A DNA stretch of 41,889 bases, taken from assembly GCA_028282565.1 (NCBI GenBank), contig JANQHS010000147.1:1-41889 (forward strand), given 5' to 3'. The DNA comes from Cytophagales bacterium (GTDB taxonomy: Bacteria; Bacteroidota; Bacteroidia; Cytophagales; CCMP332). The position numbers and the translations under genes were made by a program. This document shows positions 4,029 to 17,127 of the stretch, piece by piece. The notes under the pieces were generated by a model. It searched no databases. It saw only the letters and a program-made list of their open reading frames with translations, and had not been told where the DNA came from. Numbering within the stretch: position 1 is the first letter of the stretch; each line of letters begins with the position of its first letter.

Positions 4029-5032
4029 AAACCCTCGAAGAGATATTTGAGCGTTTCAACGGCCTGAAGGTCATGGTGATCGGAGACGTGATGGTCGACT
4101 CCTACGTTTGGGGTAGGGTCACCAGGATATCTCCCGAAGCTCCTGTTCCGGTTGTTGGTGCCAAATCCCGTGAAGCAAGGCTGGGTGGAGCCGCAAATGT
4201 TGCACTCAACCTGAAGGAGTTGGGTGTAGACCCCATTCTTTGTTCTGTGATCGGTGATGATCTGGAGGCCAGTTCCTTCCTCACACTTCTTGAAAAATCA
4301 GGAATACGCAGCGAGGGTATCATGAAAAGCCCATTCAGGATAACCACCATAAAGCATCGTATCATCGCCGGAAATCAACAACTTCTCAGGGTTGATCAGG
4401 AAACCGAAAAGAATCTCGATAAGAATGAGCGGGAGAAGTTCCTTGAGCAATTGCGAGGTCTCATGGATGGATTGGATGCGATCATTTTCGAGGATTATGA
4501 CAAAGGCGTATTGTCAAAATACTTGGTACAGTCTATCATTTCCATCGCTGAAGAAAAAGGGATCTTCACTGCTGTGGACCCAAAAAGGAAGAATTTCTTC
4601 ACTTATGAAAATGTTGATCTGTTCAAGCCTAACTTGAAAGAGCTTGGCGACGCGCTGGGCCTCAGCATTGATGGGGGAGACTCGAGTCAATTGATGAGTT
4701 CGGTTCATAAGCTCAGGGAGCGGATGGACCATGGAGCTACCTTGTTGACTCTAAGCGAGCATGGCGTTTTCATTGACTGGGGTGGGGAAAGCAAGAAGTT
4801 AAAGGCTCATAAAAGGGAGATCGCCGATGTGTCCGGAGCCGGTGATACCGTGATCAGCATTGCCACCGCAGCTATGGCTTTGAAGCTACCAATGGATTTT
4901 TGCGCCGATCTTTCCAATCTGGGAGGCGGCCTTGTTTGCGAGCATCCCGGAGTTGTACCTATCAATAAGATCCACCTGTTTGAAGAAGCCCGCAAGTCCA
5001 TGGCTGTGAAAGACTATGGCCTGGAAGGATAG
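4025..5032 (+). CDS. PfkB-family sugar kinase, HldA/RfaE domain I type (D-glycero-beta-D-manno-heptose-7-phosphate kinase)
   Basis: The 335-residue protein matches the kinase half of HldE: VMVIGDVMVDSYVWGRVTRISPEAPVPVV at the start (PfkB signature, 'RISPEAPVPVV' is typical of RfaE), GGAANVALNLKELG, DPKRKNFFTYENVDLFKPN, and DVSGAGDTV with catalytic base D274. These kinases phosphorylate heptose-7-phosphate at O-1 on the way to ADP-heptose for lipopolysaccharide. The nucleotidyltransferase half of bifunctional HldE is absent, so a separate HldC-type gene would be needed elsewhere. The start ATG overlaps the aminotransferase stop by 4 bp, and its own last 17 bp overlap the next gene. The family is sure; the exact sugar substrate is inferred. 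Confidence 0.88.
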   Translation: MKTLEEIFERFNGLKVMVIGDVMVDSYVWGRVTRISPEAPVPVVGAKSREARLGGAANVALNLKELGVDPILCSVIGDDLEASSFLTLLEKSGIRSEGIMKSPFRITTIKHRIIAGNQQLLRVDQETEKNLDKNEREKFLEQLRGLMDGLDAIIFEDYDKGVLSKYLVQSIISIAEEKGIFTAVDPKRKNFFTYENVDLFKPNLKELGDALGLSIDGGDSSQLMSSVHKLRERMDHGATLLTLSEHGVFIDWGGESKKLKAHKREIADVSGAGDTVISIATAAMALKLPMDFCADLSNLGGGLVCEHPGVVPINKIHLFEEARKSMAVKDYGLEG

Positions 5033-6818
5033 ACTAAACAATTTTCTTTATAACTCCAGGGTACCCGCTCAGATCCTCAGGAGAGTAGTTGTAAAGCTGG
5101 GCGCAGTCGTCGCATTGGGCCTGGTTCTGTATATCTATGGTTTTGAGGTTACCTATCTCGAGACAAAGTTGATTTTCAGGATCCTTGATATCATTTTTCT
5201 TTTATACATCCTGAATTTCTTCACTAAGCTGACCTATTCTTTTCAGCGGATCGCATTCATCCGGGAAAATCTCGGGGAGGCCATAGTGACGATAATTATC
5301 CTTTTCAATGGGATCAGCAAGTATCTGATCTCCTATATACCGGGACAGGAGGCATTGAGGTTTTTTGGGGTACAGGAATCCGAGGTGATCTACAGCACCG
5401 GAGTTACCTTCTTCATTCTGATGATCATCATCATGGATTTCCTGAAAGGAATGGCGCATGATAGGCTCTATCGCATCAAGCCTGCCTTTCTTCTGATTTT
5501 TTCCTTTTTGGGCCTGTCCCTTGTCGGCATGGTGCTACTGATGATGCCCAAAATGACGAATGTTCCCGGTCAGATGAATTGGATCGATTCGCTTTTTACA
5601 TCGGTGAGCGCCACTTGTGTCACCGGATTGATCGTTGAGGATACAGCCACCTTTTTTACATTGAGAGGAAAGCTGGTGATCCTCATGTTGATGCAGCTCG
5701 GAGGGATTGGTATCGTGTCCTTTGCAACCATATTTGCCGCCTTGGTCGGAAAGGGTTTTGGAATTCGTCAGCAATCCATTGTCCTGGATGTTTTTTCCGA
5801 GGAATCACTTTTTTCTGCCCGGGGCCTGATCAGAAGGGTAGTGGTGATTACCATATTCATAGAGATCATAGGCGCCTTTCTGATATATATTTCTTATCAC
5901 CCAAGCCTGCATTTCGATTCGGTTTGGCATAAGGCATTTCATTCGCTCTTTCACTCTGTCTCTGCTTTCTGCAATGCCGGATTCACCCTATATACGGATG
6001 GTTTTTATTCCAATCCTTACCGTCATTTCTATGTCCAGCATATGGTTATCGGATTGTTGATCGTTTTGGGAGGCATCGGTTTTGCTCCATTGCAGGACCT
6101 GTTTTCAATTTCCAAACTCAGGGAAAGACTGAACAACCCGTGGGTTGATTGGAAGCTTTCAACCAAAATAGCTGTTTACATGTCGGGAATCCTGATATTG
6201 TTCGGAGGGGTTTGTTTCTTTCTGCTTGAAAGGCATAATGCGATCAAGGATCTATCGACTAGTTCTTCCATCATTACTTCTATTTTCCAATCGATCACTA
6301 CTCGTACTGCAGGATTTAATACAGTTGATATCGGAGCGTTAAGGACTCCAACGCTTGTGCTGATCATCTTCTTGATGTTTATCGGTGCAAGTCCCGGATC
6401 TACGGGAGGAGGAATAAAGACCTCTACTTTCCTCTTGATCATGATCAGCGTTTTGGCCACCATACGGGGAAAGGACACCATTGAGATCGGACGGAGATCA
6501 ATACCCCAGGCACTTTTTTATAAGGCCTTGACCGTTTTTACCTTTGCCGCCACATATAACCTCATCCTGATTTTTCTCTTAACCATTTCGGAAAAGAACT
6601 TTGATGTTTTTCAGATAACCTTCGAACAGGTTTCTGCGTTTGCGACAGTAGGTCTCAGCACCGGAATAACTCCGAACCTGTCATCTACGGGAAAACTGTT
6701 GATCACCTCATCGATGTTTTTTGGAAGAATCGGGACTTTGACCCTTGCCTTGGCCCTTGCAGGAAGAAACAGCGCAGCCTCATATAAATACCCGGCCGCG
6801 AGGATTATGGTGGGTTAG
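5016..6818 (+). CDS. TrkH/KtrB-family potassium uptake protein
   Basis: Integral membrane K+ transporter subunit of the superfamily with four M1-P-M2 repeats. The four pore loops can be read with their selectivity glycines: TCVTGLIV, FCNAGFTLYTDGF, TRTAGFNTVD and ATVGLSTGITP. GASPGSTGGGIKTST is the family's conserved loop. At 600 residues it is longer than a standard KtrB (about 450). The extra part is an N-terminal block of about 150 residues with several hydrophobic helices before the first pore repeat (around residues 20-150), as in many Bacteroidota homologues. It starts 17 bp inside the heptose kinase gene, so the two are probably coupled. TrkH/KtrB proteins normally need a cytosolic RCK subunit (TrkA/KtrA); none is encoded in this window. 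Confidence 0.93.
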   Translation: MAWKDRLNNFLYNSRVPAQILRRVVVKLGAVVALGLVLYIYGFEVTYLETKLIFRILDIIFLLYILNFFTKLTYSFQRIAFIRENLGEAIVTIIILFNGISKYLISYIPGQEALRFFGVQESEVIYSTGVTFFILMIIIMDFLKGMAHDRLYRIKPAFLLIFSFLGLSLVGMVLLMMPKMTNVPGQMNWIDSLFTSVSATCVTGLIVEDTATFFTLRGKLVILMLMQLGGIGIVSFATIFAALVGKGFGIRQQSIVLDVFSEESLFSARGLIRRVVVITIFIEIIGAFLIYISYHPSLHFDSVWHKAFHSLFHSVSAFCNAGFTLYTDGFYSNPYRHFYVQHMVIGLLIVLGGIGFAPLQDLFSISKLRERLNNPWVDWKLSTKIAVYMSGILILFGGVCFFLLERHNAIKDLSTSSSIITSIFQSITTRTAGFNTVDIGALRTPTLVLIIFLMFIGASPGSTGGGIKTSTFLLIMISVLATIRGKDTIEIGRRSIPQALFYKALTVFTFAATYNLILIFLLTISEKNFDVFQITFEQVSAFATVGLSTGITPNLSSTGKLLITSSMFFGRIGTLTLALALAGRNSAASYKYPAARIMVG

Positions 6819-6854
6819 TAACTATATTTTGGACAGAATTAAACCGTATACCCG

Positions 6855-8681
6855 TTGAGAAAACTCCTATCACTTCTTATAATTTTCTTCGTTACGGACA
6901 TTGGCTGGGCTCAGGAACTGGTTTCAAGAATTGATCCACCCTTTTGGTGGACCGGAATGAAGGATAAACATCTTCAGCTCCTCGTATATGGGAAAGAACT
7001 GCGAGATGTAGAAGTCCACCTGCACCATCATCATGGAGTCCACTTAAAGGATATCGCCAGAGGCGAATCGTCTGACTATTTGATATTAAATCTGGAAGTA
7101 GCCCATCATATTCGTGGTGAACAACAATTTGAAATTGAGTTCAAAAAGGGAAATATGATTGAAGAGGTTACCTATCTGCTTCATCAAAGAAGGGATCCGG
7201 CACCGGTTGGTCTTGATCAGAAAGATGTCATTTATCGAATTCTGCCGGACAGGTTTGCCAATGGAAATCCGGAAAACGATATTGTGCCGGGTCTGTCGGA
7301 ATCCAAGTTAGACCGTTCGGACAATGAGGCCCGCCATGGTGGCGATCTTGCGGGTATCACTCAAAAATTACCCTACATCAAATCATTGGGGGTCACGACG
7401 GTCTTGATTGGATCACCCTTTTCTAATGATCTCCCCATGAGTTCTTACCTTTCAAATGCTGTAACCGATTTTTATGAAGTCGATCCGCGGCTCGGGAGCC
7501 TGGAGGAGTTGGGTCAGTTGGCTGAGAATATCCAAAATACGGGATTGAAACTTGGACTGGATTTCAACCTGAATCGCTTTGGGAAGAACCATTTATTTGT
7601 AACCCGCCCACCTTTTAACACCTGGGTAGAAAAAAGCGCCCCAATGTTGGGTGATGAAATTGCATCTACGGTATTCCTGGATCCTTATGCCTCAACGGCA
7701 GATAAAAGGAACGCTACCCAGATCTGGGATGATAGCCTCAGCATTTCACTAAATGTCAAGGATCCTTTCCTGATGACTTACCTCAATCAGCATACGATCT
7801 GGTGGATCGAAAGACTTGGGCTCAATGCCATTCGAGTACCTGATTATGCGACAATGGATCAGTTTTTTCTAAAATATTGGGGAAGGGCGATCCGGACGGA
7901 ATTTCCTGAGATTTTCATCATTGCAGGAGTTGATAATTCGAGCCAGGCGATCCAGGCTTATTATATGGGGCACCAGGGGACACATAAGAACTTTGAGAAT
8001 TACGTTCACTCCGTTCAGGACTATCAGCTCGCTTATGCTCTAAACGATTTGGTTTCAGGCCAGCAGGGTGTAAATAGCGTCTACCTTACCCTGAGCCAGG
8101 ACTTTCTATATCAACAACCTGAGCTTCTGATCAATTTTTTGGACGATGCCAAAATGGAAAGATGGAGGAGGCAGTGTAAGGGCAATTTTGATAGATTTCG
8201 AATGGGGGTGGTGCTTCAAAATATGTTGCGGGGAATCCCGATGATCCTATACGGTACGGAGATCTATTTGGGCAGCCCGGATAAATCGCTTTATGAAGAC
8301 TTTTCCGGTGGCTGGAGCGAGGATAAGGAGAATAAGTTTAATTCTGAAAATCTTCTGGGGAGCGAAAAAAGTGCCATTGATCTTGTAAAGAAGCTCACAT
8401 CATTTAGAAAAGAGCATCCGAAAATCTTTGAGGGAAAAATGATCCAGTTTGTTCCTCAGGAGGGTGTCTATGTGTTTTCAAGGTACTCTGAGAAAGAAGA
8501 AATTCTGGTGATGTGTAATGCGGGCAGCGATACTACAACTGTGCGGATCGATCTATACAAGGAGCGTTTCCGAGGCTTCGTCGAGTACCAGGAGATATTG
8601 ACTGATACCAACAACAGTTTTGGAAAAGATTTTCCCCTCGAACCCTGGGGTACGAGGATCTTCTATTTCAAGAGGGAATAA
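6855..8681 (+). CDS. Secreted GH13 (cyclomaltodextrinase/neopullulanase-like) protein with all catalytic residues replaced: probable pseudoenzyme
   Basis: 608 residues from a TTG start, with a signal peptide (RKLLSLLIIFFVTDIGWAQ). The N-terminal domain (about 22-115) matches Cyc-maltodextrinase_N (IDPPFWWTGMKDKHLQLLVYG). A GH13 barrel follows, with DVIYRILPDRFANG, HGGDLAGI and TDFYEVDPRLGSLEEL, and later GIPMILYGTEIYLG and a C-terminal beta domain. The catalytic motifs are gone. Region I 'DxxxNH' reads DFNLNR (His to R241). Region II 'IRxD' reads IRVP (nucleophile Asp to P329). Region III 'GE' reads AGV at 357-359 (no Glu). Region IV 'FLDNHD' reads FLDDAK (His to A432, Asp to K433). The substrate-site YHGY reads YLSN. 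The frame is intact, so loss of activity looks fixed rather than decay. It probably binds a glucan or acts as a structural or sensory protein (inference). It is convergent with a lipoprotein carrying a glycogen-binding-like domain. Confidence 0.85.
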   Translation: MRKLLSLLIIFFVTDIGWAQELVSRIDPPFWWTGMKDKHLQLLVYGKELRDVEVHLHHHHGVHLKDIARGESSDYLILNLEVAHHIRGEQQFEIEFKKGNMIEEVTYLLHQRRDPAPVGLDQKDVIYRILPDRFANGNPENDIVPGLSESKLDRSDNEARHGGDLAGITQKLPYIKSLGVTTVLIGSPFSNDLPMSSYLSNAVTDFYEVDPRLGSLEELGQLAENIQNTGLKLGLDFNLNRFGKNHLFVTRPPFNTWVEKSAPMLGDEIASTVFLDPYASTADKRNATQIWDDSLSISLNVKDPFLMTYLNQHTIWWIERLGLNAIRVPDYATMDQFFLKYWGRAIRTEFPEIFIIAGVDNSSQAIQAYYMGHQGTHKNFENYVHSVQDYQLAYALNDLVSGQQGVNSVYLTLSQDFLYQQPELLINFLDDAKMERWRRQCKGNFDRFRMGVVLQNMLRGIPMILYGTEIYLGSPDKSLYEDFSGGWSEDKENKFNSENLLGSEKSAIDLVKKLTSFRKEHPKIFEGKMIQFVPQEGVYVFSRYSEKEEILVMCNAGSDTTTVRIDLYKERFRGFVEYQEILTDTNNSFGKDFPLEPWGTRIFYFKRE

Positions 8682-8734: not shown

Positions 8735-9616
8735 TCAGTCCATCACCTTTCCCTCAGACAGTGGAATAAGAAGGTTATTTGACCTGGAGGGGCCTTTGAC
8801 CGACCAAACCCTCATGTGTGAACTGTCTATGGCTTTTGCCTCTGCAGGGATCTTTACCGTGACGCGGCTTCCGAGAACCTGATAATAGTCCTTATCCAGC
8901 AAAAGATTATTCCAGTAGATCAGGTATCGATCTGCACCATTTTGATCTTCAAACGCGAAGCCCTCCTGCTCAATGGAATCCAATTGGATACCCATTGCTT
9001 TCATGGCTGAAGCCACTTTGAATACAGAGTTATAGTTTCCTGACATTCCCATGACGGAATCGGTATTGTTGGGATCAAGGCTTTCCCGACCATCTAATAA
9101 GAGCTGATACTCATAGTTTCCGGGGTCCAGTGCCATAGGTTTTATCCAAAATCCATTTGAGTAGCCCAGGGAGTCCTTGGTTGGGTTCCAGTCGTTCATT
9201 GATCCTGATATGGTGACAGATCCGTATGCTTTTTTGGGGTCGGAAAATTGAAAAAGGTATTGCTGGGTTTTCGATCTCAAAACAGGAATATCATAAGGAG
9301 CTCCACCAACATAAGCCCGCAGATTACCGGCGCCCTCATCCATGACACCAATCAATTTTATTCCTGCATTCCCTACTAGTGGATTTGATCTTAGCCCCTT
9401 GGGAAGGTCGAAAGAATCAATGGTCTCGATCAGTGGAAAATAATCCTTCCAGATCAGGTCAGTGTATTCAAACTCCAATTGTATCGGGCTGGCAAGTCCC
9501 GGTAAAACATTGGCATCCTGAATCGGGAGTTGTTGCGTTTCCGGTTGGCAGGAAAGCAAAAGAATCGATAAGGTCAGGCAGGTAAAAAGCGATAAAATGA
9601 GGTTTCTGATTTTCAT
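8735..9616 (-). CDS. Lipoprotein with a glycogen-binding-like (CBM48/AMPK-type E-set) domain
   Basis: The 293-residue protein has a lipoprotein signal peptide with lipobox LLSC (acylated C23). The middle region (about 120-205) reads as an AMPK/CBM48-type carbohydrate-binding domain: GSVTISGSMNDWNP, then FWIKPMALDPGNYEYQLLLDG and DPNN. These match the family's 'v.laGsFndW' , 'l.pG.YeYkf.vDG' and 'DP.n' signatures. The flanking N- and C-terminal parts (beta-rich, VKIPAEAKAID near the end) are not recognised. Such domains bind alpha-1,4-glucans or glycogen. It may be an accessory starch-binding lipoprotein, or a remnant of a larger amylase whose catalytic part is missing. It points towards the GH13 pseudoenzyme gene with a 53-bp gap, so the two are neighbours but not one operon. 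Confidence 0.7.
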   Translation of the reverse strand: MKIRNLILSLFTCLTLSILLLSCQPETQQLPIQDANVLPGLASPIQLEFEYTDLIWKDYFPLIETIDSFDLPKGLRSNPLVGNAGIKLIGVMDEGAGNLRAYVGGAPYDIPVLRSKTQQYLFQFSDPKKAYGSVTISGSMNDWNPTKDSLGYSNGFWIKPMALDPGNYEYQLLLDGRESLDPNNTDSVMGMSGNYNSVFKVASAMKAMGIQLDSIEQEGFAFEDQNGADRYLIYWNNLLLDKDYYQVLGSRVTVKIPAEAKAIDSSHMRVWSVKGPSRSNNLLIPLSEGKVMD

Positions 9617-9758: not shown

Positions 9759-10619
9759 TCAATACCCTTGAAGCACATGATCCATGTGATATTGTATCAG
9801 TCCCTGAATGGGCTTTTTTTCGATGACCCCCAACTTCATTCCCTCATCCTTTAGCGCTACTTCCAGGATTTCCTGGTTAAAATAGGCCACAGATCCAACA
9901 AAATTTATAGGTACCTCTGATGACTCCTTGAAACAACTGACATGTATATTCAAGAATTCCTTCAGGCCTTTCATTATGAGTTCCTTGATGAAGCCATGCT
10001 GTTGATGCTCTGAAACGAACCTCATATAACTAGCCAGGTATACATTTGCCTTTGGGTTATTATAGACTTCAGAAAAGAGCGTATCCTTGTCAACGGAAAA
10101 TTCCTTTTCAAATTCCGTTTTTAAGACATCGGGTAGAGTCCTATAAAAATATGCTCTGAGAAGTGCCTTGCCGAAATAGCTCCCGCTTCCTTCATCACCG
10201 AGGATAAAGGCAAGGGAAGGAACTTCTTCTCTGATCGATTCACCGTCGAAATAACAACTGTTGGAACCTGTGCCCAGGATGCAGGCTATGCCGGGCTCTC
10301 CCGAGTAGGTAGCATAGGCAGCTCCGACAAGGTCATGATCAATGTGGATCTCGCTTGAGGTAAAAAAGAGTTTGAGCCCTTGTTCAATGATCTTGTTTTT
10401 TTCCGGTGATGAACAACCGGCGCCGTAGAAAAAGACTTTTTCAATCCTCTTTAATGGAGGAAAATGCCCACGGTTTTTAAAGAGTTCTGCCGAGATGGTC
10501 TCCCTGGTGTGAAAAAATGGATTGAAACCCATGGTGCTGAAGATGCTAATGATCTCACCGTCTGGTTGTATCAGAGCCCAATCGCATTTCGTCGAGCCGC
10601 TATCCGCTATGATTACCAC
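9759..10619 (-). CDS. BadF/BadG/BcrA/BcrD ATPase-family protein (N-acetylglucosamine kinase-like)
   Basis: 286 residues, GTG start. ADSGSTKCDWALIQPDG is the phosphate-1 motif of ASKHA sugar kinases in its BadF/NAGK form, FYGAGCSS and ILGTGSNSCYFDGE are the phosphate-2/sugar-site region, and LGDEGSGSYFGKALLRAY is the typical GlcNAc-kinase motif. FVGSVAYF near the C-terminus is the adenosine motif. Close Bacteroidota homologues of this length are annotated as N-acetylglucosamine kinases, which would feed GlcNAc from cell wall or chitin into metabolism. No other amino-sugar gene is next to it; the CBM lipoprotein lies 142 bp downstream on the same strand. The enzymatic role is inferred from the family. 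Confidence 0.8.
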   Translation of the reverse strand: MVIIADSGSTKCDWALIQPDGEIISIFSTMGFNPFFHTRETISAELFKNRGHFPPLKRIEKVFFYGAGCSSPEKNKIIEQGLKLFFTSSEIHIDHDLVGAAYATYSGEPGIACILGTGSNSCYFDGESIREEVPSLAFILGDEGSGSYFGKALLRAYFYRTLPDVLKTEFEKEFSVDKDTLFSEVYNNPKANVYLASYMRFVSEHQQHGFIKELIMKGLKEFLNIHVSCFKESSEVPINFVGSVAYFNQEILEVALKDEGMKLGVIEKKPIQGLIQYHMDHVLQGY

Positions 10620-11010: not shown

Positions 11011-11021
11011 CCTACATTATG

Positions 11022-11106
11022 CAGAGGGTGAGGGATTCGAACCCCCGGTACCTCGCGGTACAACGGTTTTCAAGACCGCCGCGTTCGACCACTCCGCCAA
11101 CCCTCT
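11022..11106 (-). tRNA. tRNA-Ser (anticodon UGA)
   Basis: An 85-nt class II tRNA. The acceptor stem AGAGGGT (5', from 11106) pairs perfectly with ACCCTCT, with discriminator G at 11022. The D arm contains GGAGTGGTCGAA. The anticodon loop CTTGAAA gives anticodon TGA (11072-11070), which reads UCA codons. There is a long variable arm of the serine type (stem around TACC/GGTA), and the T arm has GGTTCGAATCC. The 3' CCA is not encoded, as is usual in this phylum. It has its own terminator 11 bases downstream and a candidate promoter about 80 bases upstream. Confidence 0.96.
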
Positions 11107-13761: not shown

Positions 13762-16700
13762 ATGAAAAAGTTTACTTCAGCCTTAAACCTAGGTTTATTT
13801 CTCCTTTCATTTTTATCATTTTCACAATTACATGCCACTACTCATAACGTTACCGTTATGAATTTTGGCTTTTCTCCCTCTGCTCTGAATATCACCCAGG
13901 GAGATACGGTGATTTGGACTCTCATGAGCGGTAGTCACAATGTGAACGGTACACAGGCGACCTTTCCTTCAAATCCTGCCTCTTTTGGTGGTTTTCCCGC
14001 GAGTTCTTCATGGCCACCATTCGAATTCGTCTTTGCAATCCCGGGTTCATACAACTATCAATGTGATCCACATTCCGGAGCTATGCAGGGAACAATTACA
14101 GTAGCACCTGCCGCGGCGAGCGGAGGTTGTGATCTTTTTATCTCCGAATACATTGAAGGTTCGAGCAACAACAAAGCCATCGAATTGTATAACCCTACTT
14201 CTTCAACCATAAACCTTTCGGACTATGAGATGAAAAGAGCCAACAATGGAAGTACATCCTATGGCTCGACTCTAGGGATGTCCGGTTCGCTTGGCCCTTA
14301 CGAGACTTACCTTATTGCTAATCCTTCCGCCGATTCCGCATTGTTGGGTATAGCCGATACTACCGATGGGATCACTTTTTTTAATGGAAATGATGTGCTC
14401 CATTTATTCCACATTCCTTCCGGAGATCTGATCGATGGCATTGGCAGATTAGGTGAAGATTCAATTTGGACCGTTCCTGGAGTAAACGGTGTTTCAGGAT
14501 CAACCGGTGAACATACGCTTGTCAGAGCTGGGTTTGTTACGGGTGGAGATTCTTCATGGAGCGTGGTTCGCCATGAATGGTATGTTTTTCCTCAAAATGA
14601 GTTTGGTTATTTCGGGCACCATAATGGCGCGGCCTGCGGAAGCTCGATTCCCGCATATATGATCAGTGAGGTCAAAGGATTTGATGCCAATGGTGTGGCT
14701 GATTCCAATGGTGTTGAATGCCAGTTGACAGGGGTCATTCATAATCCGGATCAGGGGTTTTTTGATGTAGAATTTGCCTTTCAGGACGGAAGTGCGGGTA
14801 TTTGGCTGGAGGGAAATCCATCACCTGATTATTCACCCATTGCCGAAGGCGACCTGATCAGGGTCTGGGGTAGGATTAATTTCAGTTCAGGTGTTACCGA
14901 ATTCGATCCGGATTCCATGGTGCTGATCTCAGCCGGCAATCCCCTGTTTGTTCCTGAGAAAATGGATACCATTAACGAGTACACCGAGGGCCGCTATATC
15001 AGGATCGACAGTGCAAGGATGTTGAACGTAAACCCAGGTGATACATTCGCAATCGGTGGAGGTGGCGTAAACTATACTTTTGTGACGATTCAAACGGATA
15101 CCTTCCAAATCAGGGTGGATCGTGCTTACGAAGATGATTGGAATGGCAATCCTCTCCCCACCGGTCTTTTTAATATGGTCGGGATTGGGAGTCAGTTTGA
15201 TGGATCTTCGCCTCACTTCGATAATTATCAAATATTCCCAAGCCGCTATTCGGATTTTGAAATACTGTCCGTAGCAGGAGAGGCTATTTCATTTGCAGGT
15301 TCTTCGGGGTCGGTACCGGAAAACGGTGGTAGCCATCTGGTTCTTGTAACGGTTGCCGATACTTTGAATTCACCTTCAACGGTGGAGGTTAATCACACGG
15401 GTGGAACAGCCGTTTCTGGTGTAGATTTTACGTTTAATGATACTACGCTGAACTTCTCCGCCGGGGAAATGGATAGTTTTTGGTTGGAAGTAACGATCAT
15501 AGACAATGCTGTTGCCAACCCTGATAAAACGGTCATTTTGAGTCTTGAGAACCTTACCGGAAGTGCGGTCTATGGAATTGATACCGTTTACACCTTGACG
15601 ATAACTAACGATGACATTCCTGCATATTCCATTGCTACAATTCGAGGTAATGACACCGATGGGATTGCTGATTCAATTGGGGTTTATTGCTCTGCCACAG
15701 GTGTGGTCTTGGGTGTGGACGTTCAAGGAACATCTGCAAATAACGCTTTCAGTTTTGATGATGGAACCGGAGGAATCTCTCTGTTCAAATTTGGTGGCTT
15801 TACACCCCCTTATACCGTAACTGAAGGTGATTCGGTGAGGGTCATAGGTGTGGTGTCGCAGTTTAACGGCCTGTCCCAATTCAATCCTGATTCCATGGTT
15901 GTTATTAGTAGCGGAGCAAATGTTCCGGCCCCGTTTGTTGTGACGGATTTGGATGAAAGTACCGAAAGCCGTTATATACGGATTAACGACGTGACCTTGG
16001 TTGATCCAAGCCAATGGAACACGGGGAATAGTTTTACAGCTCAAATCACAAATGGGACGGATACCTTTGACCTGCGAGCTGATTCGGATATCAGTGTTTC
16101 AGATATGCTCCCCCCTGTTGGCGTTTTTGATGTTATTGGCATTGGCGGGCAATTTGACTTAAACGGTCCTCCCTACACTACTGGTTACCAAATACTCCCG
16201 ATGGATTCTACGCAGATCATACCTGTGATTAATCCGGGCCCCTCAATCCCAACATATTCAATTGGTGATGTAATAGGAGTGGATTCTGACTTTTTACCGG
16301 ACTCACTGGGAGTAGAGTGCAAATTGGTTGGTGTGGTGTATGGAGAAAATTTCAGGCCATCTGGAATTGAATTGACTTTGATCGATCCTCTAAACAATGA
16401 TGACGGAATCCAAATATTTAGTGGAGGAAATCCTTTTGGTGTCTCTCTCCAAGAAGGCGATGAGATCAGGGTTATTGGAGAGATCGGATTCCTGGATGGA
16501 ATGACAAGAATTCTGCCTGATTCTATTGTTGAAATCTCCAGTGGAAATACGCTTAAGAACCCAACACCGGTTTCGATTTTTGATGAATTCTCTGAGTCAA
16601 ATCTGGTTGAAAGGGAGGGAACTTATGTTGGAGGCAGTTGGAGTCCGGGAGGTACCTTTGATGTAACCTTTGATGAGCTTGCTCCTCTCACCGGTTCTTT

Positions 16701-17127
16701 TACTGTTACTATTCATGCGGAATGTGACCTAAACTCTGCTGGGGCGGAACCAATTGATGGTGAAGATTATAGAATTATCGGCATTGGTGGCCAAAGAGAT
16801 TTATCAAGTCCCTGGAATTCAGGTTATAGGTTACTTCCGAGAAGGTCCTCTGATCTAACACTGATTAGTGGTTTTGAAGATGCTTTGAATTCTTCTTCAT
16901 TCAATATTTATCCTGTTCCATCATCCGGAATAATGAATATCGACATTTCAGAAGACGGATTTGAAGAAGTTCAGGTCATGGACATGATCGGAAATGTTAT
17001 GTTCACCAGGGAGATCAGCAAAGGTCATAATGTTCTGAATCTCGGCTCACTACCTTCAGGGAATTACCTGATCAAAGCATCAGGAGATACAAGGGTGGAG
17101 ACCAGGAAAATTACGATTGTGAAATAG
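13762..17127 (+). CDS. Secreted multidomain protein: cupredoxin, lamin-tail domain, three OB-like repeats, Calx-beta, T9SS sorting domain
   Basis: 1121 residues with a signal peptide (about 1-25). Residues 26-115 form a plastocyanin-like cupredoxin with candidate type 1 copper ligands H59, C101, H104 and M108. About 120-290 is a lamin-tail domain (CDLFISEYIEGSSNNKAIELYNP). Three repeats start at about 296, 619 and 829 with the related sequences IPAYMISEVKG, IPAYSIATIRG and IPTYSIGDVIG. Each continues through a 'gd.iRV.G.i....g...f.pDSmv.iSsG' block, resembling the OB-fold part of large extracellular nucleases. A Calx-beta domain lies at about 506-617 (VPENGGSHLVLVTV...LTITNDD). The end (about 1047-1121) is a T9SS type A sorting domain (NIYPVPSSGIMNIDI...KITIVK). 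I see no nuclease catalytic domain. It is predicted to be surface-attached or secreted; its role is unknown. A strong terminator follows. Confidence 0.85.
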   Translation: MKKFTSALNLGLFLLSFLSFSQLHATTHNVTVMNFGFSPSALNITQGDTVIWTLMSGSHNVNGTQATFPSNPASFGGFPASSSWPPFEFVFAIPGSYNYQCDPHSGAMQGTITVAPAAASGGCDLFISEYIEGSSNNKAIELYNPTSSTINLSDYEMKRANNGSTSYGSTLGMSGSLGPYETYLIANPSADSALLGIADTTDGITFFNGNDVLHLFHIPSGDLIDGIGRLGEDSIWTVPGVNGVSGSTGEHTLVRAGFVTGGDSSWSVVRHEWYVFPQNEFGYFGHHNGAACGSSIPAYMISEVKGFDANGVADSNGVECQLTGVIHNPDQGFFDVEFAFQDGSAGIWLEGNPSPDYSPIAEGDLIRVWGRINFSSGVTEFDPDSMVLISAGNPLFVPEKMDTINEYTEGRYIRIDSARMLNVNPGDTFAIGGGGVNYTFVTIQTDTFQIRVDRAYEDDWNGNPLPTGLFNMVGIGSQFDGSSPHFDNYQIFPSRYSDFEILSVAGEAISFAGSSGSVPENGGSHLVLVTVADTLNSPSTVEVNHTGGTAVSGVDFTFNDTTLNFSAGEMDSFWLEVTIIDNAVANPDKTVILSLENLTGSAVYGIDTVYTLTITNDDIPAYSIATIRGNDTDGIADSIGVYCSATGVVLGVDVQGTSANNAFSFDDGTGGISLFKFGGFTPPYTVTEGDSVRVIGVVSQFNGLSQFNPDSMVVISSGANVPAPFVVTDLDESTESRYIRINDVTLVDPSQWNTGNSFTAQITNGTDTFDLRADSDISVSDMLPPVGVFDVIGIGGQFDLNGPPYTTGYQILPMDSTQIIPVINPGPSIPTYSIGDVIGVDSDFLPDSLGVECKLVGVVYGENFRPSGIELTLIDPLNNDDGIQIFSGGNPFGVSLQEGDEIRVIGEIGFLDGMTRILPDSIVEISSGNTLKNPTPVSIFDEFSESNLVEREGTYVGGSWSPGGTFDVTFDELAPLTGSFTVTIHAECDLNSAGAEPIDGEDYRIIGIGGQRDLSSPWNSGYRLLPRRSSDLTLISGFEDALNSSSFNIYPVPSSGIMNIDISEDGFEEVQVMDMIGNVMFTREISKGHNVLNLGSLPSGNYLIKASGDTRVETRKITIVK
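14647..16866 (+). repeat. Three protein-level OB-like repeats inside the T9SS cargo gene
   Basis: Repeat units begin at about 14647, 15616 and 16246 and encode roughly 200 residues each. The first two are separated by the Calx-beta domain. They share the opening 'IP.Y.I..v.G.D..G.aDS.GV.C...GV', a central 'GD.iRV.G.i' and the ending 'D..GIGgQFD...p...gYqi.P'. Divergence is high at DNA level, so these are old duplications. Confidence 0.75.

Follow-up and report, generated by a model that had tools for sequence, protein, structure and literature searches.

A SusA-like GH13_46-derived pseudoenzyme probably retained after loss of a starch-utilization locus in a Cytophagales bacterium

Analysis of a 41,889 nucleotide stretch of DNA from a Cytophagales bacterium (hereafter the window) shows that a gene of SusA-type ancestry, located where a starch-utilization locus has been deleted, encodes a protein in which the three catalytic residues of the GH13 family have all been replaced and the N- and C-terminal domains remain constrained while the barrel between them has diverged rapidly (Table 1). 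The protein is probably a secreted pseudoenzyme retained for a binding or scaffold role of its outer domains, although both this role and the export are inferred. The ligand would be a glucan, a metal or a protein partner.

Table 1. Features of the pseudoenzyme gene and its genomic neighborhood (window coordinates)
Feature	Coordinates	Strand	Remarks
trkH	5016..6818	+	flanks the ancestral starch locus on the left and precedes the pseudoenzyme gene by 36 bp; gene-order comparison
susA-like pseudoenzyme gene (predicted dead GH13_46-type protein, 608 aa)	6855..8681	+	TTG start
N-terminal Cyc-maltodext_N domain, residues 25-113	6927..7193	+	Pfam PF09087; branch lengths at the orthologue's rate
Histidine cluster HLHHHHGVH, residues 55-63 (H84-H85 nearby)	7017..7043	+	this genus only
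Barrel domain, residues 114-528	7194..8438	+	fast-evolving, catalytic motifs lost
P329 codon, nucleophile position	7839..7841	+	alignments
G358 codon, acid/base Glu position	7926..7928	+	alignments
K433 codon, transition-state Asp position	8151..8153	+	alignments
C-terminal Cyc-maltodext_C domain, residues 529-602	8439..8660	+	Pfam PF10438; evolving at the orthologue's rate
Lipoprotein-like remnant, 293 aa, N-terminal CBM48/AMPK-like part of the locus's second GH13 enzyme	8735..9616	-	catalytic domain absent
BadF/NagK-type kinase, right-flank anchor common to G002	9759..10619	-	60% identical to the gene that lies past the G002 locus

A SusA-like protein without the GH13 catalytic residues

The frame of 608 codons is open throughout, with no stops or frame breaks, and its N-terminus is signal-peptide-like when judged by eye, both in agreement with a first-pass annotation of this DNA. 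TTG is the sole usable start, the frame being bounded by an in-frame stop at position 6840; the orthologue from a genome of the same genus (G001) likewise begins with TTG. The Pfam domains detected are Cyc-maltodext_N, Alpha-amylase (129-247 only) and Cyc-maltodext_C, and the nearest solved relatives by sequence alignment are 9dcq, SusA of Bacteroides thetaiotaomicron (9fyz) and the cyclomaltodextrinase of Flavobacterium sp. No. 92 (1h3g). An AlphaFold model (pTM 0.82), for which eleven relatives were included, agrees with SusA and 1h3g along its full length with TM-scores of 0.85-0.88, at about 31% identity to these two structures in the structure alignment. The product is an intact GH13 protein of the SusA/cyclomaltodextrinase type and, by similarity, belongs to subfamily GH13_46.

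Active-site residues were assigned by sequence alignment to 9fyz, 9dcq and 1h3g and from two multiple alignments. These alignments place P329 at the position of the nucleophile, G358 at that of the acid/base Glu, which the first-pass annotation had described as missing at A357-G358-V359, and K433 at that of the third, transition-state Asp; R241 and A432 stand where the two conserved histidines of regions I and IV belong, so that all the replacements proposed in that annotation are borne out. Its residual doubt about a shifted alignment in region II is removed, given that D330 aligns with an invariant Thr and P329 with the Asp. The annotation had also pointed to a structural model as a means of locating these residues; in the AlphaFold model, strands 325-328 and 354-357 precede P329 and G358, respectively, and K433 comes after 426-428, a placement that would be expected for the catalytic positions following beta-4, beta-5 and beta-7. 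To the changes already listed we add Y201N (at a conserved Tyr), N431D, the loss of the MPDLN motif, a truncated neighboring gene and the loss of the surrounding locus.

Across the seven positions of the active site, the pseudoenzyme reads NRRPGAK, with R327 the sole survivor of the seven subsite -1 residues, whereas 150 of 151 homologues read YHRDEHD. The remaining one reads YQRDEHD, and this His-to-Gln change at CSR-I (L157, G454:C137) is the only other departure at these positions. The 151 are the matches listed from searches of the order and the phylum, for the most part ordered by how similar they are to the query; every one of these other Bacteroidota homologues retains the Asp/Glu/Asp triad, and no relative with a dead triad was found among them. 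A separate homologue (L132, G712:C44:4236-6038) contains one in-frame TAA and is possibly a decaying copy.

Compared with the published definition of GH13_46 (PMC9781549), the protein shows the full-length similarity, the N-terminal Cyc-maltodext_N-type domain and the tryptophan pair between CSR-V and CSR-II (W316-W317). In contrast, the intact Asp/Glu/Asp triad, by which members were selected in that study, is replaced by P329/G358/K433, and CSR-V, MPDLN and almost invariant across the subfamily (PMC9781549), reads SISLN, with M, P and D gone. Judging from the sequence, the protein is best called a GH13_46-derived pseudoenzyme, because it is of GH13_46 descent and yet lacks the required triad. 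This term also reflects the combination of absent catalytic residues with purifying selection, as inferred from the branch lengths described below.

The substitutions have also introduced new acids. D330, D360 and D431 (7842-7844, 7932-7934 and 8145-8147) each lie 1-2 residues away from one of the lost acids; all 151 homologues have Thr at position 330 and Asn at position 431, and 137 of them have Trp at position 360. One could envisage that T330D, W360D and N431D build a different, relocated catalytic site, but we consider this very unlikely: Y201, H241 and H432 have been lost as well, so that the ancestral sugar site is dismantled, and Asp is a common residue that can be reached from Asn by a single base change. 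The pseudoenzyme should be catalytically dead.

Deletion of the ancestral starch locus

The G001 orthologue is 49% identical to the pseudoenzyme, has an intact triad and is its sister in the tree (support 1.0). It belongs to a complete starch locus comprising genes for SusD, a secreted protein, a CBM protein, SusA, an MFS transporter, a GH13 enzyme, a CBM-GH13 enzyme and GH65; on a different G001 contig, a secreted GH13 protein and then SusC come after TrkH. In another genome of the same family (G002), a single contig carries genes for DnaK, an aminotransferase, a kinase, TrkH, a 950-aa protein, SusC, SusD, SusA, three further genes, GH65, a HAD-family hydrolase and a kinase, the 950-aa gene occupying the position of the secreted GH13. 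From these two genomes we reconstruct the ancestral order as TrkH, secreted GH13, SusC, SusD ... SusA, CBM-GH13, GH65, kinase. In the window, only 36 bp separate TrkH from the dead SusA; the CBM remnant follows after a further 53 bp, and the kinase comes next, such that the deletion of the starch locus at the TrkH-kinase site is directly visible. A tRNA-Ser gene (anticodon TGA; 11021-11106, minus strand) lies near the right flank of the lost locus. Further along the window, at 13762-17127, is a gene for a 1121-aa secreted protein with a T9SS sorting signal and lamin-tail, Calx-beta, DUF5689 and copper-binding domains.

SusC/SusD and amylases alongside SusA, the hallmark of a Sus locus, are present in G001 and G002 and missing in the window genome. 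A GH13 search of this genome returned the pseudoenzyme as the only alpha-amylase family match, with no classical GH13 glycogen or starch enzyme and no second, active copy; no GH65 or SusD homologue and no SusC match above the cut-off were found in this draft assembly, which is 93.6% complete and consists of 472 contigs, so that single absences could be gaps. Within the window, tblastn searches for relics of the other locus genes gave chance-level matches apart from the pseudoenzyme and the CBM remnant. The fragmentation of the draft might prompt the suspicion that the arrangement is a product of misassembly or contamination. This is extremely unlikely, considering that the contig shares with G002 both the left-flank order (DnaK, aminotransferase, kinase, TrkH) and the right-flank kinase, that the codon-position GC of the pseudoenzyme gene is like that of the neighboring genes, and that TrkH of the window is 86% identical to that of a same-genus genome. 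The proximity to trkH had also raised the possibility that the pseudoenzyme is a TrkH partner, an ancillary subunit in the manner of 4F2hc; this candidate is no more than a weak lead, because the 36-bp spacing is explained by the ancestral order and the deletion.

The second survivor of the locus is the lipoprotein-like remnant. Its frame is open, its start is lipoprotein-like, and it aligns without gaps over 275 aa, with 48% identity, to residues 9-283 of the 783-aa CBM-GH13 enzyme of G001, ending about 20 residues short of the Pfam catalytic domain of the parent enzyme (which starts at residue 303). In five other genomes its counterpart occurs only within frames of 783-816 codons. A single-sequence AlphaFold model of the remnant (mean pLDDT 35) was discarded. 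Both surviving genes of the locus appear to have lost catalysis, one through substitution and the other through loss of a domain.

Constraint on the outer domains

Synonymous sites are saturated between the pseudoenzyme and its orthologue (dS above 4), which makes dN/dS unreliable; therefore, branch lengths were estimated for each domain, with the topology of a 26-sequence tree kept fixed. For the N and C domains combined, the branch of the pseudoenzyme (0.284) is as long as that of the active orthologue (0.295; ratio 0.96). For the barrel, by contrast, the values are 1.131 and 0.361, a 3.1-fold difference that makes the pseudoenzyme the longest terminal branch of the 26 taxa. Likewise, identity to the orthologue is 0.63 in the N domain and 0.62 in the C domain but 0.40 in the barrel (228-470), and the resulting barrel to N+C identity ratio is 0.63. 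Across 2080 pairs of active homologues this ratio never falls under 0.76, a descriptive comparison given that the pairs are non-independent. The losses are focused on the active site: 13 of the 20 conserved columns in the active-site motifs have changed, compared to 22 of the 97 conserved columns outside them (Fisher p = 0.0004).

These observations bear on whether the gene is simply a leftover that has been drifting, unselected, since the loss of the locus and is still open by chance. The absence from the genome of all functional partners, the strong acceleration of the barrel and the truncation of the neighboring gene are what such a leftover would be expected to display. Nevertheless, the N and C domains are not accelerated relative to the active orthologue, the losses are concentrated on motif columns, and the 293-aa neighbor is itself open and aligned gap-free to its parent. 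Moreover, neutrality at this divergence predicts several stops: in simulations of neutral drift to 10% residue change, the mean was 3.8 stops and only 1% of the runs had none, as is the case for the pseudoenzyme gene, which also has no frameshifts. We regard a decaying leftover as unlikely, and decay does not account for the gene, in which the outer domains are constrained and the barrel is accelerated. The branch lengths imply purifying selection on the pseudoenzyme, and together with the motif-focused losses and the absence of stops they support the earlier proposal that a dead protein has been kept for another job. The divergence of the barrel could, in part, be adaptive change toward a new pocket as opposed to relaxation. 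The dead form is known from one species, and no second genome among those sampled shares it.

Possible roles of the retained protein

In the history that we favor, the protein originated as an active periplasmic cyclomaltodextrinase/neopullulanase of the SusA type, encoded in a starch-utilization locus. Nearly the whole locus has been lost in this species while the SusA gene stayed, and of the catalytic residues of its product a single Arg is left, although the protein appears to be still folded and, presumably, exported. Selection would now act mainly on the C domain and on the N domain, which is Ig-like, resembles a starch-binding domain and carries a genus-specific histidine cluster, with the barrel serving as a spacer in what is most likely a periplasmic binding or scaffold protein. 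In the Flavobacterium cyclomaltodextrinase, the N domain has a role in oligomerization and, from docking only, has been proposed as a new starch-binding domain (PMC9781549).

A specific form of this explanation is that the pseudoenzyme and the CBM lipoprotein hold maltodextrins or starch at the cell envelope. The similarity of the N domain to starch-binding domains, for which cyclodextrin docking has been proposed (PMC9781549), and the retention of a CBM48/AMPK-like remnant next door are compatible with such alpha-glucan binding, but the genome has no detectable SusD, full-length SusC, GH65 or active GH13 to use the captured glucan, the main glucan cleft is precisely the altered part of the protein, and glucan on the N domain has been seen in no solved structure (PMC9781549). 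Altogether, we are inclined to doubt this version. The changes in the old catalytic cleft, together with the disappearance of the starch system, make binding at that site less likely, and the capture of glucan as food also becomes less likely, given that the genes for import and breakdown that were searched for were not found.

A different role is suggested by the histidine cluster. In a stretch of twelve residues, six are His in both the window protein and the active orthologue, compared to three at most in any other homologue listed. The cluster histidines do not differ between the dead protein and the active one of this genus, and hence the cluster predates the loss of catalysis. Together with the His pair at 84-85, it may form a metal site. 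The ancestral N domain could accordingly be imagined to have had a second function around the cluster, the only one kept once the locus was lost, leaving a periplasmic protein that binds metal or serves as a scaffold and whose barrel is inert; we hold this narrower scenario to be quite doubtful.

Relationship to other noncatalytic GH13 proteins

Noncatalytic GH13 proteins are already known in animals (4F2hc) and plants (ISA2), where they have usually been recognized long after the change. In the present case, a single genus or family provides the active orthologue together with both the intact ancestral form of the locus and its stripped form, so that a loss of catalysis with selection maintained can be read, and tested, domain by domain. 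The case also illustrates that GH13 matches do not equate with a capacity for starch degradation, given that the only GH13 match in this genome should be inactive. Searches of the open-access literature brought up no earlier description of a dead GH13_46 protein.

The pseudoenzyme shares with SusA and 1h3g the N-A-C domain order, the full-length fold, the RHGGDLxGI motif and the WW pair, and differs from both in lacking the triad, the two conserved His, the Tyr and MPDLN. The ectodomain of 4F2hc similarly combines a GH13 fold that lacks all three catalytic residues with a non-catalytic job (PMC8537225), but belongs to an animal membrane protein of another GH13 branch that is bound to a light-chain transporter as an ancillary subunit of amino-acid transporters. 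Plant ISA2 is likewise a GH13 paralogue with substituted catalytic residues that has been selected for a noncatalytic function (PMC12510319); it partners the active paralogue ISA1, however, whereas no active GH13 was found in the window genome. BmaN1 (GH13_45) is a further GH13 protein whose triad departs naturally from the usual one (PMC5347038), but only the third Asp is altered, to His, and activity persists, in contrast to the loss of all three catalytic residues along with both His and the Tyr in the window protein.
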